The notes under the pieces: model-generated
The model's database searches: none
Told to the model about the DNA's origin: nothing
The model's input: only the letters and a program-made list of their open reading frames with translations
Virus record (IMG/VR): IMGVR_UViG_3300046000_006960
Coordinates: 1-53,760 of that record
Direction: 5' to 3' (one strand)
From: a virus
DNA length: 53,760 nucleotides
Shown here: in pieces, positions 1 to 47,986 of the stretch
How the letters are laid out: every line of letters starts with the position of its first letter
How positions within the stretch are numbered: the stretch's first letter is position 1
Translations under genes and position numbers: made by a program

Positions 1-3000
1 TACAACTTGCTCTTCTTCCAGACCTTGTTGCTCTTCTTTACTTTGAAGATCGTTTTCTATCTCTTGATTATTAAGCTCTTCTTCTTTTTGCTTAATGATT
101 TCTTTTATATAAGGGTTTTCAACTAAAGGATTAATGTTTTCTTTCTTATATGTTTTTAAATCATTCCAAAACTTTAATTCATTATCTATAGATGTTATTG
201 CTAACTTATCTATAATAGATTTTTCTAGTCTTTTTAATTTTTCTTTTTCAGACTTTAAATTTTGTTTAGCTTCAAATAATGCTTTTGTAGTTTTTATTAA
301 TTCTTCTTTAATAAACTTATGGTCAGCAACATTTTCATTTTTAATCTTACCCTCAGAAGTTAATAAAGATTTAATTACATTTCTTAATGCATCAGCATAC
401 CCTTCTAATCCTTCAATAGAATTTTCTAAATATTCAATATGCTCTTCTGAAGTTAACTTAGTAGCAAGCAATCTTTCTATAGAATGTCTATGTTCTTTAA
501 ATATTTCCTTATTTTGTTCTAAGTAATCAATTATTTCTGCAATAGAATTAAAATCAGTTTTTTCAATTTGCTCATATCTGTTAAAAACATATTCAATGTT
601 TTTATCAAGTTGTTTCAAATCTTTTTTAATCTCACCTTTAATTCCTTCAAGATATTCTATTTGCTTTTCTACTTTTTTAAGAGCATCTTGACTATCTTTA
701 ATCAACTCTTTTATAAGTTTAGCATTTCTACCTCTTGGAGATTTATCTTGAGCATCTAAACCTTTAATTATTGCATTCTTTTGTTTTACTAAATCATTTA
801 TTTCAGAATCTATTTCTGACATAAAATCATTTAAAGCAGTAACTTCTTGATCAAATGAATCAACTATTTCTGATAAAAATGTTTTAAATTCATCTCTATC
901 TTGTATTTTTTTAGTTATTTTTTCTTCTAAACTTTTTACTGTATCACTTATTTTAGACGAACTAATATTAATAGATTTTAATTTTTCTAAATTAAGCTGA
1001 AGGTTTTCTAAAGAGTCATTTTCATTTACACTTCTAGATAAATCATCTAATATTTCATTTTCCGCAACTTTATCATAATACTCTTTAGTATCTAAAGGAG
1101 TATGAGGTCTAGATAACATTTTATCTAAATCTTCTTTATTTTCTGCAGACTTGATATTATTTATTAAATCATCGGCTTCCTGAATTGCTTCATCTGATGT
1201 TTTTGCACTAAGTTCATTATCTTTTTTAACAAAGTCATCAAAAGTCTCATTAATGTTTTTACCTTGCCATATGTCAGAAATATCTTTTTTACTTTTTTCT
1301 ATTTCTTTTTTTAATGCATTATATTCTTCATTAGTTTTAGATAATAATTCATTGTTTTTAATAGCCTCTTTGGTTCTTTCAGCTCTAGCTATCATTTCAT
1401 CATTAGATATAGTTCCTCCTTTCATATTAGCTACTGGAAATTCAGCGGCTTCATCATATAAAGGATCTATTCCTAATTCATCAAAAATATTATTTCTTTT
1501 TTCTTCTAGCTTTTGTAACTTAGTTTCATTTGCTCTTAACTTATGTTTTGAATTTAAGTAAGAAGCATTTAATCTATTTAAAAATCTATCTTTTTGATCT
1601 TGATTAGCAGACTCGTTATCTAAACTAATTACATCTCTACTAAAATCACCAAACTTTTGATTTTGTTTTTGAAGGTATTTAGCAGTTTCTAATATTTCAT
1701 TCATGAAGTTTTTAGACTTATCTTTCTCATCAGAAGATTGATCTCTTTCTACTATTTCATTTAACTTGACATCTTCTCTTAGCTTTTGTTCTAAAGCCTT
1801 AATACCTATTTCTCCATTATGAATAGATGGCAAGACCATATTAAATATAGCTTCTCTTTTTAACTTGTCAACAACTTCTGTATTTCCAGTTTGAACTGCT
1901 AAATCAAATAGTTTTGATTGTTGTTCAGAAAAATTTAAAGATTTAGCAAGATTATAAACTTCTTTATTATCTAAAAGTCTTTCAGTGGTATCATTGCCAT
2001 CTTTGTCTTTTTTATATTTGTAACTTCCATCTTCATTTTGTTGATATATTTTATTATCAAAAATATCATTAAAATTAGTTATTTGAGAATCTATATTATC
2101 TAATACTTCATTAGTATATTTTCTATTAGCAACATCTTCTTTTCTGCCTTGATAAGACATCATTGGACCACCTAATGCTCCACCTAAAAATATAGCTTTT
2201 TGACCTTCAACAGAAGAAACAGTGTTTACATATTCTTTAGCAAAATCTCCAACGGTTTCAGAAATTTGATCAACATAACTTCTATTATCTTTTTTGCCAA
2301 GCTTATTTTGCATTGCTCTTTTAACATTAAAGTTTTCAGTAGTAGTTTGTAATCCTTCTTCGCCAAAACCTTCAGTTAAAAGAGCTTTTCCTACTTTACC
2401 TACTGACCTTCCAGCTCTATTTACAATACCTTTAATGCCTTGCTCTGCAGATCGCTCAAACTTTTGAGCAGCCTTGCCCCATATAGCTTTGTGCATGATT
2501 GCATTAGGGCCTAAAAGAATACCAACATTAGTTACAAAAGTATTTCTCATAGCCAATGCACGTTGTTCTTTAAAAGCTTCTTCTGCTACATCTGTAGAGG
2601 CTTTTGCAGATAACTCATTGTATTTATTTATATCTATAGAACCATTTCTTCTTTGAACATCTAATTCTTGTAGTTTTTTTGCTACTTTTTGTTGATGATC
2701 TGTACTTCCTACATAACTTTTAATAAAATCAGGCATCTTTCTTTCTAAATCATCACCAACACCTTTAGCTTCTGCTCCAGCCTCTAACAAAGTATTAGAT
2801 GTGATTGCCAAACCACTATCTATTGTTTTTCCAGTAATTCCCATAAATTTTAAAGCACTAACTCCTTCTTCAGCTTTTCCAGCCATTGAAGTATATTTTG
2901 CTAATTTTGCGCTATTTGCAGCTGCTCCAATTAATTTACTTCCAAGTCCTAAATATTCAAAACCAGCGCCAGGAGCCATCATACCTATAATAAAACCAAG

Positions 3001-3576
3001 CCCATCCGCTCCATCTGTAGCCCAAAATGCGGTTGAAGATATATTTGCCCAAAGATTTCCTTCTTTAACGGCTTTAGCTGTATAAACAGGCATTAATTCA
3101 GTATTAATTTTTTCATTCATACTATCCACTGCTTTAATCCATGGATTGTTAAAAGCGGTGTCTATAAACGAATGTTCATCTTTGCCAGAAATTAAATCTT
3201 GAGTATTTTCAGCTGTAGCTTGAATCATCCCTCCAATAACTCCAGGTATTTTTGCAATTTCAGCTCCAGCCTTAATTATAGCTCTTCCTGGTGTTTTTAA
3301 AAGTTGTTCTGTTCCTGATTGATTTTGAGCCCTTAACTCGTTATAAGGATCTTCAGCTTTTAAATCTACAAACTGATCTAAAAATGGATTAGTTCCTTCT
3401 CTGACTTCATCTTGATTATAACTATTAAAATTAACTCTGTGTTTTTCTTTGTTAAATGCATTATTTACAACTAGATTTCTTTTTTTCTTTGTATTTTGCT
3501 TTTTAAAGTTTTCATCTAAAGTATTAAGAAAGTTTTTATCATAACTGCCTAAAAGTCCTTCATCTTCTTCTTCCAT
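1..3576 (-). CDS. Giant internal virion (cargo-type) protein, 3' end missing
   Basis: The reading frame starts at an ATG at 3576 and stays open for 1192 codons to the left edge, so the C-terminus is outside the window. Residues about 1-60 are charged. Residues about 130-420 carry Gly/Ala-rich amphipathic or hydrophobic segments (for example GFIIGMMAPGAGFEYLGLG and AIFLGGALGGPMM). The remainder is Lys/Glu-rich with long predicted coiled coils. It begins 2 nt after the stop of the 675-residue gene, so the two are co-transcribed. crAss-like phages end their structural module with very large capsid-packaged proteins, including the virion RNA polymerase. I see no polymerase DxDxD motif in the visible part, so I call it only a cargo or ejection protein. 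Confidence 0.75.
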   Translation of the reverse strand, partial: MEEEDEGLLGSYDKNFLNTLDENFKKQNTKKKRNLVVNNAFNKEKHRVNFNSYNQDEVREGTNPFLDQFVDLKAEDPYNELRAQNQSGTEQLLKTPGRAIIKAGAEIAKIPGVIGGMIQATAENTQDLISGKDEHSFIDTAFNNPWIKAVDSMNEKINTELMPVYTAKAVKEGNLWANISSTAFWATDGADGLGFIIGMMAPGAGFEYLGLGSKLIGAAANSAKLAKYTSMAGKAEEGVSALKFMGITGKTIDSGLAITSNTLLEAGAEAKGVGDDLERKMPDFIKSYVGSTDHQQKVAKKLQELDVQRRNGSIDINKYNELSAKASTDVAEEAFKEQRALAMRNTFVTNVGILLGPNAIMHKAIWGKAAQKFERSAEQGIKGIVNRAGRSVGKVGKALLTEGFGEEGLQTTTENFNVKRAMQNKLGKKDNRSYVDQISETVGDFAKEYVNTVSSVEGQKAIFLGGALGGPMMSYQGRKEDVANRKYTNEVLDNIDSQITNFNDIFDNKIYQQNEDGSYKYKKDKDGNDTTERLLDNKEVYNLAKSLNFSEQQSKLFDLAVQTGNTEVVDKLKREAIFNMVLPSIHNGEIGIKALEQKLREDVKLNEIVERDQSSDEKDKSKNFMNEILETAKYLQKQNQKFGDFSRDVISLDNESANQDQKDRFLNRLNASYLNSKHKLRANETKLQKLEEKRNNIFDELGIDPLYDEAAEFPVANMKGGTISNDEMIARAERTKEAIKNNELLSKTNEEYNALKKEIEKSKKDISDIWQGKNINETFDDFVKKDNELSAKTSDEAIQEADDLINNIKSAENKEDLDKMLSRPHTPLDTKEYYDKVAENEILDDLSRSVNENDSLENLQLNLEKLKSINISSSKISDTVKSLEEKITKKIQDRDEFKTFLSEIVDSFDQEVTALNDFMSEIDSEINDLVKQKNAIIKGLDAQDKSPRGRNAKLIKELIKDSQDALKKVEKQIEYLEGIKGEIKKDLKQLDKNIEYVFNRYEQIEKTDFNSIAEIIDYLEQNKEIFKEHRHSIERLLATKLTSEEHIEYLENSIEGLEGYADALRNVIKSLLTSEGKIKNENVADHKFIKEELIKTTKALFEAKQNLKSEKEKLKRLEKSIIDKLAITSIDNELKFWNDLKTYKKENINPLVENPYIKEIIKQKEEELNNQEIENDLQSKEEQQGLEEEQVV

Positions 3577-35452: not shown

Positions 35453-37687
35453 TTAGTAATGTTGCTTTCTTGCATTCCAGTTTCTTTCAAAGAATTTATC
35501 ATTAGAAACTTGATCTATTTTTTTGTGCTGATTAGCTATAGCCGCATTAGTTCTTTTTACTCTATCTTCTCTAAGCAGAAATAACATACCTCCTGCAGAT
35601 ACACGGTCAAAGTTGCCATCACTATTCCAAGCAACACATTCTTCTAAATAAGGTATGCTTCTTATGTGATGTAGCTTTAAACTATTATCTTCTTCATCTC
35701 CTTCGTTATATTGCGTAAGCATGTATTGTGCCTGAAGTAATCTTCCCCATTTATTTATCTCTCGATTAGCATGAGTTCCTTTAGCTTTGTTTCCATATAG
35801 ATTAGTAGCTTTTACCATATCCATATCTTTAAGTATCTGAGGCACATCGCATAAATAATGCAAACAATTTCTTGCATCAAAATAACTAAACAAACCTTTT
35901 AAGTTGCTTTCGTAGTTTGCTTCTGCATTATAAAATTTAAGAAGTCTTAATGACAGTTCATAAGCATCATTTGCTAATCTTGGTCTTCCTGTATATTCAG
36001 CAACAATTCTATCTGTAAAAGTATCCATTATTAAAATACTAAATAAAGATGTTCCTGTGTCTGCGTCAATAGGGTCAATACCAGCAATATATCTTCCTCT
36101 TTGTATTTCTCCATGACCATTTTTCTTTGGCATTTCAAATATTTCAAGACAACCTGTTCTATCTGTATCAGAACTATCATAAGCTCTTAACGGATATTTA
36201 TCAGATGTAGGTTTCCATTCAACTTCACCTGTAGGGCCGTAAACTAATTCTCCAATATAATGTTCTGCTAAAAATGATTCCTTTTTAGGACCTATGCTTT
36301 CTAGATAGTCTTTTATATCAGCTACAGGAAATACTGTTCCCTCAGTACGCATAATTGCCTCCTGTGGCGTTATAGGTTCCTCTGCTTTCTTTTGAGTAAT
36401 AGCTCTGGCATCAGATGAATTATATTTGACTTCATGTCTATCTAATAAAATTTCAATCAAAGCTTTTATTACATCAGGCTCACCATTTACTTCATCATAA
36501 CATTCATTACGATTTAAATATGCTCCCCAAAAGAATCCACATTCTAAATCGCCATTTGCTCCTTTATCAAAAACATTAGGGATTCCTAATATATTATAAG
36601 CTCCTGGTTTATAAAATAGTTTCTCAGACCCAGCAAATGAGGCTCCTTCAACTCCACCGGTTCCTCCTGCAAGCATAAATCCAAATGATACTCCACCATC
36701 CTCTACTGCTTTTCTGTTAACGTTCCATGCTTTTTCAAGATTAGGAAACAATCCATCTTCTTCGTAATGTATTAATGGCCCACGAATACCCCTTGCTTTA
36801 TCAGGGTTATCTTTTAATGATATCCCAAACACAGATGATAACAATCCTTTACGAGATCCATATTCATCTTTATATCCTAATTGAATATTCATTTCTTTTG
36901 TGGCATCAATAGTACGCATACGAGGCAAAGGAGTATGTTCTGCTATCCAGTCTAATGTATCTAATACTTTACCCCATATTCCTTTATCTCCAGACAAGAA
37001 TCCTTTATCAGATGCTAAATGGAAATTAGGATTACCAGATCCAGGAAATACATACATATTTCTTGGTGACTCTGATGCATTCTTGAAACTAAATCCAATA
37101 CCACGAGTTTTTAATACTTTACCATGTTTACCTAAACGTTTAGCTCTTGCTGTATAGTGAAAATAAAGATAATCACCTAACCATGGTTTAGCAAACTTTT
37201 TAACACGCTCTCCTTGACTACGCTCTCCTTTACCACTTTTAGCAATAGTTTGAACCAACCAAATAGGGCTGTAATTCCAGTAAAAATACAACTCGCCAGG
37301 AATCCATTCTCCATCAGACTCTCTAACTATACCATACTTCCATTTAATTAATTCTTGCTTCCAATACTCTGCGTATTCTGATTTAGGGTTACTATTTGGT
37401 TGCAGATTAGTATACCTTCCATTGTTCTCAAAGAATATAGCTGGTTGTCTAAAATAATCCATATCTTCAAGTATGTGAGGATTAGTGATGTCAACATCTA
37501 TCCTATTATCATCATACAGTTCTGACTTTGGCCTATCTTTAGCGTAACCACGAATACTCTCGTGAGCAATAAGATTTTTTACAAACTTAATAGTTGATGT
37601 ATATTCTACAAGGTTTTCATATACTTCTCTTGGCAACGATTGTCTTAATTCATCAGTTATTACAGTTTGGTATTTATTTAATTCCAT
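35453..37687 (-). CDS. terL: Terminase large subunit, 744 aa
   Basis: The DNA-packaging motor. The ATPase half shows a deviant Walker A around residues 192-203 (LKTRGIGFSFKNA) and a Walker B-type strand ending in acidic residues (GPLIHYEEDGLF, near 305), followed by a Gly-rich coupling segment (LAGGTGGVEGA). The nuclease half begins with YIAGIDPIDAD near 535 and has a second acidic strand at SYFDARN near 610. The 744-residue length is typical of crAss-like TerL. It overlaps the GroEL-like stop by 10 bp and is followed by the portal gene. Confidence 0.9.
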   Translation of the reverse strand: MELNKYQTVITDELRQSLPREVYENLVEYTSTIKFVKNLIAHESIRGYAKDRPKSELYDDNRIDVDITNPHILEDMDYFRQPAIFFENNGRYTNLQPNSNPKSEYAEYWKQELIKWKYGIVRESDGEWIPGELYFYWNYSPIWLVQTIAKSGKGERSQGERVKKFAKPWLGDYLYFHYTARAKRLGKHGKVLKTRGIGFSFKNASESPRNMYVFPGSGNPNFHLASDKGFLSGDKGIWGKVLDTLDWIAEHTPLPRMRTIDATKEMNIQLGYKDEYGSRKGLLSSVFGISLKDNPDKARGIRGPLIHYEEDGLFPNLEKAWNVNRKAVEDGGVSFGFMLAGGTGGVEGASFAGSEKLFYKPGAYNILGIPNVFDKGANGDLECGFFWGAYLNRNECYDEVNGEPDVIKALIEILLDRHEVKYNSSDARAITQKKAEEPITPQEAIMRTEGTVFPVADIKDYLESIGPKKESFLAEHYIGELVYGPTGEVEWKPTSDKYPLRAYDSSDTDRTGCLEIFEMPKKNGHGEIQRGRYIAGIDPIDADTGTSLFSILIMDTFTDRIVAEYTGRPRLANDAYELSLRLLKFYNAEANYESNLKGLFSYFDARNCLHYLCDVPQILKDMDMVKATNLYGNKAKGTHANREINKWGRLLQAQYMLTQYNEGDEEDNSLKLHHIRSIPYLEECVAWNSDGNFDRVSAGGMLFLLREDRVKRTNAAIANQHKKIDQVSNDKFFERNWNARKQHY

Positions 37688-39126
37688 TCGTTTTTATTTA
37701 AAACAATACAGTCTGTTGATAAAACTGTTTTAGCAATAGATACTGCGTTTTCTAATGCACACCTAGTAACCTTAAGTGGATCTATGATATTTTGTTCAAA
37801 CATATTTTTAATATGATTAGCATTAATTATGTTTTTAGGCGTATCTAAAGCTTTAAAAATAGCACATGCTTCAGGATACATAAACATATCCATAATCATA
37901 TCGTTAGCCCAATATAATGCTAATCCACCGCCTTCCACAATGCCTTCTTCTAATGCGCATGCTACAGCTTTAACCGCATCATCATATCTATCGTACTTTT
38001 CTTTAACCTCAATTTCAGATCCACCGCCTACTTTAATTAGGGCAACTTTAGCTGTTAGATTTTCAATACGTTTATTAATGATTTCTACATCATGCTTAGT
38101 TAGTTCTTTTGATTTAGATAACTCTGTAAGATTATCTATAATATCAGCAACATCAACATCGTCATGCTTAATTAGTAAAGAATTATTTTTAGTTATTTTA
38201 CAAGACTTTAGTTTTCCAAAAGTATTTGCTGTAGATTTGCCAATGGCAGTCATTATTTCTGCTCCAGTAAAGTCAGATATGTCTCTAAGGAAATCTTTTC
38301 TTACAGGGCCAAATCCTGGTGTTTTAATAACACATAATTGAATGTTACCACTCAATACATTAGATTCTAACTTACGTAATTCTTTTTCAACTATATCTTC
38401 TGTTATAATTAATAGCGGTTTCCCTGATTGTGCAAATGTATTTAGTACTCCTTGTAATGGTATTAAATCTGTTAATTTACCATCTATAATTAATACGGAT
38501 GGATCGATAAATAAACACTCTCCTTTTTTAAGGTTATTTACGAAATGCTTAGAAAAATAAGATACATCTAATTGCATTCCATCAATTAACTCTACAGAAT
38601 CTTTTTGATTAGTAGACTCCTCAACTTTAATTATATTAGAAAAATTGTAAGCTTGTTGAATAATATCGCCAATCTGTATATCGTTATTAGCAGATATACT
38701 TGCAACATATTTAATCTCTTCATGTTTTAATTCTTTTGAATTAAGTTTTAATTGTTCAATTACTTTTGGTATAATTTCATCAAACGCTTTATTAATTTCA
38801 TTTGAATCAAAATCTTTTAAGTTTTGTATAAAAGCATTAGCTAATACAATTGCAGTGGTAGTTCCATCTCCAGCTAAATCAACTTGCAATTCAGCAACTT
38901 CTTTTACTAATTGTGCGCCTATGTTTTCTATTGCATTTTTAAAACTTACCTCTCTAGCTACAGATACGCCGTCCTTTGTTATTTTATATTTATTAAACTC
39001 AGTGCTATCTGGTATAATTACTGTTTTACCATTAGGCCCCATTGTTTTTGACACTGCGTCACATAACTTTTGGATTCCATTAAACAATAAGTTTCTTGCT
39101 TCTTTTTCAAAGTATATTTCTTCCAT
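37678..39126 (-). CDS. groEL: Phage GroEL-like chaperonin, 482 aa
   Basis: A group I chaperonin subunit. ATP-site motifs are intact: ITKDGVSVA with D52 and LAGDGTTTA with D87, both at the same residue numbers as in E. coli GroEL, plus VGGGSEIEVKEK and YDDAVKA, where the catalytic Asp398 equivalent falls. Apical-domain words (LIIDGKLTDL, VIKTPGFGPVRKDFL, DFTGAE) and the late NAVSIAKTVLSTDCIV block are present. It is about 65 residues shorter than GroEL (545): several loops are trimmed and the Gly-Met tail is absent. It lies immediately before TerL (10-bp overlap), four genes after a GroES-like gene. It probably helps fold phage virion proteins. Confidence 0.92.
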   Translation of the reverse strand: MEEIYFEKEARNLLFNGIQKLCDAVSKTMGPNGKTVIIPDSTEFNKYKITKDGVSVAREVSFKNAIENIGAQLVKEVAELQVDLAGDGTTTAIVLANAFIQNLKDFDSNEINKAFDEIIPKVIEQLKLNSKELKHEEIKYVASISANNDIQIGDIIQQAYNFSNIIKVEESTNQKDSVELIDGMQLDVSYFSKHFVNNLKKGECLFIDPSVLIIDGKLTDLIPLQGVLNTFAQSGKPLLIITEDIVEKELRKLESNVLSGNIQLCVIKTPGFGPVRKDFLRDISDFTGAEIMTAIGKSTANTFGKLKSCKITKNNSLLIKHDDVDVADIIDNLTELSKSKELTKHDVEIINKRIENLTAKVALIKVGGGSEIEVKEKYDRYDDAVKAVACALEEGIVEGGGLALYWANDMIMDMFMYPEACAIFKALDTPKNIINANHIKNMFEQNIIDPLKVTRCALENAVSIAKTVLSTDCIVLNKNEWN

Positions 39127-46819: not shown

Positions 46820-47435
46820 GAAAGACCAAGGTTGGTAAATAGTAGTTCGCGGGAGAGCACCTACTTTAAAAATAGCGATCCCATCATGGGGGTGCCTGGT
46901 TTTGACAGGTTACTAATAATTAATACAATCAGCCAGAGAGATAACTGTAAACTAAGGTGAATTAAATAAACGACAAAAATACAACAGCTCAAACAAGAGC
47001 AAACATGCAAGTGGTTCATAACATCTTAAATGGTGGAACTTCAGTATCAACAGAAATGTTGATTGCTGCGTAATATTTTTAGATTATTTTAAGGATTTCC
47101 TTGTTAGATTAAACAAGGTGGTGGAATCACTGATTAATCAGTTGACCTCGTGTATCTAAACACATAAAACTATAGTGAAGCTGTATAAATTGTATTAAGG
47201 AATGTAATTTGGACGGGAGTTTGAGAACGGACTCACTATGTAGGGATATGTAGTTAAAAATTGGAAGAATTGCTGGAACACTAAAGCCATTTAGGTATGT
47301 ACAAAATTACAGTACACTAAGTAGTCAATCAGCAGCCGAGCTTACTGGCGGAAGTAAGAAGGTTCAACGACTAGGGAATCTAAGGATAGCCCACAGCCTC
47401 CAACACCTAGAACAGGTGATGATATAGTCTAATCA

Positions 47436-47855
47436 CTAGTGAAAACTAGTGCAGAAAAATAGCCTTTCATAAGCTAATTTTCTATCGTATTCTATTATAG
47501 AATATTTACCATTCTTTTTAGTTACAATATTATGATACTTTAATATAGTATTGATTCTATGTAATTTTTTAGAATGATGAGAATTTAATAATTCACAAAG
47601 CTTGTAACATACTTGATTGCTACTTGCAGATAAAGAATAGCCAATAGAATGGCTTGTCTTTTTAGCTGGTTTTGTACTGATTGAAAGTTTTAAATTATAA
47701 TTTAACAATAAATATTGTTGAATTTCTAATAAAAGATTTTTATCAGTATTTGTAAAATCAATTTTAATACAACGAAATTTGTCATCTTTAGATTGATAAG
47801 ACATTGTAATTGAGCCATCTGCATCAAAAAAACCTGAAATGTAATTTAAGTCCAT
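47436..47855 (-). CDS. LAGLIDADG homing endonuclease inside the tmRNA intron, 139 aa
   Basis: A single-motif LAGLIDADG protein. The motif is LNYISGFFDADGSITM at residues 3-18, with the catalytic Asp in the DADGS part. The later LSASSNQVCYKLCELLNSH and YHNIVTKKNGKYSII segments fit the family. At 139 residues with one motif it must act as a homodimer. It is read opposite to the tmRNA, from its own promoter, and its stop codon falls inside the intron's P9 hairpin. It presumably cuts intron-less ssrA T-loop sequences. Confidence 0.9.
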   Translation of the reverse strand: MDLNYISGFFDADGSITMSYQSKDDKFRCIKIDFTNTDKNLLLEIQQYLLLNYNLKLSISTKPAKKTSHSIGYSLSASSNQVCYKLCELLNSHHSKKLHRINTILKYHNIVTKKNGKYSIIEYDRKLAYERLFFCTSFH

Positions 47856-47889
47856 AATAATAGGATAAGGGTTATATATACGTTAGGTG

Positions 47890-47920
47890 CAAATATACAA
47901 AATTTAATTACAAAAAACAA
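47890..47920 (-). promoter_or_regulatory. Bacteroidota-type promoter of the intron endonuclease
   Basis: On the minus strand: TTG, 20 bp, TATATTTG, 35 nt ahead of the endonuclease ATG and wholly inside the intron. It makes the endonuclease independent of tmRNA transcription. Confidence 0.75.
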
Positions 47921-47986
47921 GTAAATGTTAAATTATTTTATAATAATTTTTATAATGAATTATAAATGCGATTCTCCCCACCTCCA

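Follow-up and report, generated by a model that had tools for sequence, protein, structure and literature searches.

The tmRNA gene of a Crassvirales phage is split in its T-loop by a group I intron, and this intron contains, on the strand opposite the ribozyme, an intact LAGLIDADG homing endonuclease gene preceded by a Bacteroidota-type promoter motif. We hold the anatomy and conservation of this antisense arrangement with high confidence. It is very probably best explained as a mobile T-loop intron carrying a reversed, self-contained cassette of promoter and endonuclease gene that would home into intron-less tmRNA genes. The window, meaning the whole stretch of 53,760 nucleotides analysed here, is recognisable as a Crassvirales record by its muzzle and cargo domains, portal, terminase, and major head protein. 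It also encodes a GroEL-like chaperonin (37678-39126; Cpn60 E value, 8e-42; PHROG groEL) adjoining the terminase gene. The features of the locus are as follows.

46888..47221, plus strand: tmRNA 5' exon (ARAGORN on the intron-removed sequence; RF00023 partial match, 21.9 bits)
47222..47968, plus strand: group I intron, 747 nt, at T-loop position 3 (TT^CGATT) (RF00028; boundary search)
47222..47451, plus strand: ribozyme part, P1 to P9 (43-pair consensus over 21 relatives)
47434..47451, plus strand: P9 hairpin CACTAGT-GAAA-ACTAGTG, in which the endonuclease gene has its final codons and its stop
47436..47855, minus strand: LAGLIDADG homing endonuclease gene, 139 aa, single motif YISGFFDADGSI (ORF, Pfam, model)
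47890..47897, minus strand: -7 element TATATTTG (motif search, conservation)
47918..47920, minus strand: -33 element TTG, 20 nt from the -7 element
47969..47986, plus strand: tmRNA 3' exon (boundary search; ARAGORN on the joined exons)

The tmRNA gene occupies 46888-47986 on the plus strand. ARAGORN did not detect a tmRNA in the uncut window and recovered a complete one after in silico removal of the intron. The 5' exon supplies the acceptor strand GGGGGTG, the tag reading frame (...EMLIAA*), the T-stem strand GGGAG, and T-loop bases 1 and 2, and the 3' exon supplies the CGATT of the loop, the T-stem strand CTCCC, the acceptor strand CACCTCC, and the discriminator A. Joined, they read GGGAG-TTCGATT-CTCCC, with 5 of 5 T-stem and 7 of 7 acceptor pairs formed, and the product combines a tRNA-like domain with a tag frame that has a resume sequence and a stop (ARAGORN tag DKNTTAQTRANMQVVHNILNGGTSVSTEMLIAA*). 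Exon rejoining and ARAGORN on the intron-removed gene thus bear out the original prediction that the interruption lies in the T-loop of a tmRNA. Across the wider set of loci described below, the spliced tmRNA went unrecognised by ARAGORN in 7 of 26, and splice sites there were assigned from T-stem and acceptor pairing or by inspection. The tag in the window (46972-47073) is long, at 33 aa ending in EMLIAA*, as are those of several related phage tmRNAs; bacterial copies have short tags of the GESNYALAA type. No exact TTG-N18-22-TANNTTTG match, the host-type promoter, was found for the tmRNA itself just upstream of 46888.

The intron matches RF00028 with 80.2 bits (E value, 2e-20; gathering score, 50), and its ends, GGGAG-TT^...G^CGATT-CTCCC, have the U at -1 and the terminal G of the usual rules. 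Its assignment to T-loop position 3 follows the numbering in a figure legend of PMC11915505. Among 21 introns, 34 of the 43 consensus pairs showed two-sided compensatory changes, the P9 pairs included. On this anatomy and covariation, the ribozyme appears intact and the tmRNA transcript is predicted to self-splice. P9 (47434-47451) holds the endonuclease stop codon (47436-47438) and 16 nt of the ORF, placing the stop inside this hairpin as predicted, and by direct reading the GAAA loop is the complement of TTT-C, a Phe codon and the first base of the next codon. Since P9 covaries among relatives, the stretch in which ORF and P9 overlap serves both strands.

The endonuclease ORF runs intact from ATG to TAG and lies wholly within the RF00028 intron on the opposite strand, in agreement with the claim that a LAGLIDADG gene is read antisense to the intron. 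Pfam matches were LAGLIDADG_3 (E value, 2e-9) and LAGLIDADG_1 (E value, 4e-6), and PF14528 scored 37.9 bits against a cut-off of 22.5; only LAGLIDADG families exceeded their cut-offs, and the protein did not qualify as a His-Cys box enzyme. The AlphaFold model (mean pLDDT, 94) has the LAGLIDADG fold, and the best Foldseek match was the archaeal I-Vdi141I, followed by I-OnuI and I-CreI variants. The GFFDADG motif, with the catalytic Asp, is invariant in an alignment of 31 rows. LAGLIDADG enzymes with a single motif in each chain work as homodimers, and the endonuclease probably does the same, presumably cutting within the T-arm; family membership also gives good grounds for assigning it a homing function.

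Two other accounts of the ORF were weighed. That the frame arose by chance opposite the intron, or is decaying there, is hardly conceivable: one relative (L046) has indeed decayed to 79 aa, but nothing of the kind is seen in the window; Pfam scores lie above cut-off, length and motif are conserved, and dN/dS was below 0.4 in 12 of 12 pairs. It is also very unlikely that the protein serves mainly as a maturase aiding splicing of the intron. LAGLIDADG proteins can act as maturases for group I introns, and the bifunctional I-AniI was among the matches; however, introns of the same kind occur without an internal gene (L003, L004, and L023), the cassette also adjoins tmRNA genes that have no intron (L025 and L027), and the invariant catalytic Asp runs contrary to a maturase-only role.

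Bacteroidota-type promoters have the consensus TTTG / TAnnTTTG, with -33 and -7 elements about 20 nt apart. Judged by this consensus, TTG-N20-TATATTTG at 47920 to 47890 on the minus strand has both elements and the spacing of a promoter of this type, inside the intron and 34 nt upstream of the ATG. In dinucleotide shuffles of the same upstream stretch, its score was reached in 3 of 1,000. Such single-locus values ranged from 0.000 to 0.16, and the loci with a conserved promoter are related. Because a single match is common in AT-rich DNA, the claim is carried by conservation and not by the match. At 11 other antisense loci, TTG stands exactly 20 nt from a TANATTTR-like element (variants of the -7 element include TAACTTTG in L017 and TATATTAG in L010), and eight loci align at the same promoter columns despite distances to the ATG of 23 to 53 nt. 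The host-type promoter predicted inside the intron is thus found there, with conserved spacing. It was absent or unclear upstream of L042 and L043 (both bacterial MAGs), L005, L006, and L033, and since none was found at L042, L043, L006, and L033, a private promoter is not universal.

The upstream blocks of antisense copies (L002 and L011) and sense copies (L028 and L034) match at 19 to 21 of 24 bases, where 200 shuffles reached a maximum of 17 to 18; the block of L018 is weaker (18 of 24). A block common to both orientations makes promoter and gene look like one cassette. The same motif lies 25 to 85 nt upstream of other minus-strand genes of the phage, including those for a cargo-domain protein and for a polymerase-exonuclease-like protein, which makes it look like a kind of promoter in use by this phage and not like chance. 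From these conserved elements we predict, with moderate confidence, that the motif is active as a promoter; gene and promoter probably move together.

The upstream region also bears on a reading in which the endonuclease shuts off its own promoter by binding a degenerate copy of the T-arm there, as I-TevI does. Upstream of the gene in L002, a stretch agrees with the reconstructed T-arm of that locus at 19 of 31 positions, the top score in its 6 kb, and weaker resemblance is seen in L016 (18 of 31), L034 (16 of 31), and the window (16 of 31). For I-TevI itself such autorepression has been demonstrated, with an operator that matches the homing site at 15 of 20 positions (PMC2988022). Against this, single-locus chance values ran from 0.01 to 0.9 among loci that are related, several loci lack the resemblance, and what matched in L005 and L006 was the 3' exon of the locus itself. 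Promoter mimicry of the homing site is therefore suggestive in L002 and L016 and weak elsewhere, and autorepression, although compatible with the cassette reading as an additional layer, is possible but doubtful.

Scans of viral contigs and bacterial genomes yielded about 30 related endonuclease genes in three layouts, the close relatives being situated within a tmRNA gene or next to one.

Layout A, inside the intron and antisense (18 loci: the window and 17 further, two of them bacterial MAGs): the window, L001, L002, L005, L006, L008, L010-L018, L033, L042, L043
Layout B, inside the intron and sense: L021, L024, L028, L034, L044, L045, and, by inspection, the truncated L030
Layout C, outside, downstream and convergent, beside a tmRNA whose intron has no endonuclease gene: L003, L004, L023
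Layout C, outside, downstream and convergent, beside an intron-less tmRNA: L025, L027, L032, L046

Boundaries of L018, L024, L033, L034, L043, L045, L003, L004, and L023 were read by eye. The two MAGs in layout A, L042 and L043, are Flavobacteriaceae with the tmRNA tag GESNYALAA. The gene end overlaps P9 in all 17 layout A loci that were run (L013 was left out, having the same protein as L012). On the protein tree, 13 antisense copies form one clade (100/100), and layouts cluster, with 3 changes versus 10.8 for shuffled labels. Values of dN/dS were 0.12 to 0.38 among antisense copies and 0.10 to 0.38 over all 12 pairs tested; by this measure the endonuclease is under purifying selection. Recurrence of the layout, low dN/dS, and aligned promoter spacing together argue that the arrangement is more than chance. 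Sense and outside relatives keep the same endonuclease, indicating that antisense placement is not required for its function.

Searched with the endonuclease profile, 397 family-level and 395 class-level genomes each returned only the query genome itself, which suggests that the endonuclease is rare in bacteria. Cultured phages had no close relative, only ones of 27 to 29%; none was found in plasmids, and further viral scans added no close relatives.

Several loci are unusual in other ways. L046 (3001-3240), in a Phaeodactylibacter MAG, is the decayed 79-aa remnant, lying beside an intron-less tmRNA. On the minus strand of L033, a circularly permuted tmRNA (5' piece from near 2145) is combined with a T-loop intron (2439-3059) and an antisense endonuclease gene; 7 of 7 acceptor and 5 of 5 T-stem pairs form, and the two pieces cofold at -50.2 kcal/mol versus -33.2 ± 2.7 kcal/mol for shuffles. 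Neither Rfam nor ARAGORN recognised this tmRNA, and a permuted-plus-intron form is absent from the form table of PMC11915505. In L023, the tmRNA 3' end (CACCTCCACCAA) is present twice, flanking the adjacent endonuclease gene (2501-2902) as if the insertion had brought its own 3' end, and the intron there appears to end in A, not G. A displaced tmRNA 3' end was rejected as a general feature, as the CATCTCC-like stretches at L003, L004, and L027 are apparently part of the cassette upstream block; the replaced-3'-end reading was retained for L023 only.

Introns associated with this endonuclease family occupy T-loop positions 2, 3, 7, and 8, which are all four known subsites. Position 2 is used in L004, and within the 13-member clade alone the intron stands at position 3 (the window), 7 (L042 and L043), or 8 (L018). 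The T-arm is a natural inverted repeat, GGGAG-TTCGATT-CTCCC, whose two stem strands change together, and such a repeat would suit a homodimeric endonuclease. Uninterrupted T-arms of this type were found in at least 120 stretches of viral contigs. The cultured crAss-like Cellulophaga phage phi14:2 has a tmRNA of 72% similarity that ARAGORN reads without an intron, a possible target for the endonuclease; this uninterrupted gene (L007, 3002-3471) is missing from the annotation of the GenBank record. More distant relatives overlap an annotated tmRNA gene in Sphingobium phage Lacusarx (L232, 2420-3308; 28 to 29%) and a tRNA-Ser gene in Gordonia phage WilliamBoone (L233, 2977-3504; annotated as an HNH endonuclease), and both overlaps agree with a preference of the endonuclease for tRNA-like arms.

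In the mechanism that we propose, a cassette of promoter and single-motif LAGLIDADG ORF would have been inserted in reverse after P9. The tmRNA transcript would remove the intron by its own ribozyme, and the opposite strand would supply the endonuclease under control of its own Bacteroidota-type promoter; the promoter is conserved, and we infer its transcription. With a promoter of its own, endonuclease expression would be independent of the tmRNA promoter and of unspliced RNA. The probable homodimer would then cut T-arm DNA of intron-less tmRNA genes, and repair of the break from an intron-bearing copy would spread the intron, as family knowledge suggests. Reverse placement may be tolerated since the cassette does not rely on the sense transcript for anything and the complement of P9 can encode its 3' end.

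The original prediction went further, proposing a switch in which antisense RNA blocks folding or splicing of the pre-tmRNA, making endonuclease and tmRNA expression mutually exclusive. The promoter is conserved, and no minus-strand terminator-like site was found between the ORF end and the tmRNA 5' end, the first lying at 46833-46814, so an antisense transcript could extend across the entire tmRNA. However, the same cassette also occurs in sense and outside layouts, and with many phage genome copies in a cell, one copy could serve as template for the plus-strand transcript and another for the minus-strand transcript; with so many copies, a single convergent promoter would not be enough for mutual exclusion. 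Moreover, each excised intron contains a sequence complementary to the endonuclease mRNA, which makes repression of the endonuclease an equally possible outcome of interference. We consider the switch quite unlikely and any antisense effect more likely a by-product of the cassette's placement; speculatively, it may be the endonuclease that is held down, by convergent transcription of the tmRNA and by excised intron RNA, and not the reverse. A broader scheme, which we regard as unlikely, would have a cassette directed at the T-arm palindrome of tmRNA genes occur in three interchangeable layouts and with introns at all four subsites, the antisense form being an overlapping two-strand unit in which tmRNA transcription and the excised intron RNA would restrain an endonuclease that represses its own T-arm-like promoter.

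These loci address the open question of how endonuclease genes and self-splicing introns join. One family displays, side by side, endonuclease genes adjoining targets with and without an intron as well as genes within the intron, sense or antisense, showing how such genetic parasites come to be assembled. Because the T-arm is naturally palindromic, there is a simple reason for a LAGLIDADG enzyme that has one motif and is probably homodimeric to settle on tmRNA (and tRNA) genes, and for introns to sit at several positions close to one another. In the antisense form, regulation of the endonuclease or of the tmRNA by convergent transcription becomes directly testable.

Group I introns in the tmRNA T-loop are known at four subsites (Williams 2002; PMC11915505), and the window shares gene, loop, and intron class with them. 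According to PMC11915505, 36 of 883 tmRNA introns carry homing endonuclease genes, LAGLIDADG was in the founding set, and 4 of 23 such genes lie after P9; these four may include L042-L045. The text of that survey makes no mention of endonuclease gene strand. What differs here is that the gene is antisense, has its own promoter, occurs in phages, and belongs to one family found at all four subsites. Our search, which covered open-access full text, found no report of an antisense homing endonuclease gene in a bacterial or phage group I intron.

Antisense genes are known in nuclear rDNA group I introns, namely I-DirII and I-DsqI (PMC9548176, PMC3073962, PMC3679873). Like the gene in the window, these lie opposite the ribozyme (I-DsqI in P9), have a presumed promoter of their own, and raise the concern of antisense interference. 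They differ in being eukaryotic His-Cys box genes with a Pol II transcript that has a spliceosomal intron and poly(A), whereas the present gene combines LAGLIDADG with a phage or bacterial promoter. I-TevI of the T4 introns (PMC2988022) resembles it as a phage intron endonuclease with an intron-internal promoter of its own, but is a GIY-YIG enzyme, on the sense strand, in a protein-coding host gene. In collaborative homing (reviewed in PMC3984707), a free-standing endonuclease gene lies beside an intron-bearing target. L003, L004, and L023 resemble this state, having a T-loop intron without an endonuclease gene and the gene just downstream of the tmRNA; the window does not, its gene lying inside the intron. 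Because the same endonuclease family is also intron-internal in both directions, several stages are visible within one family.
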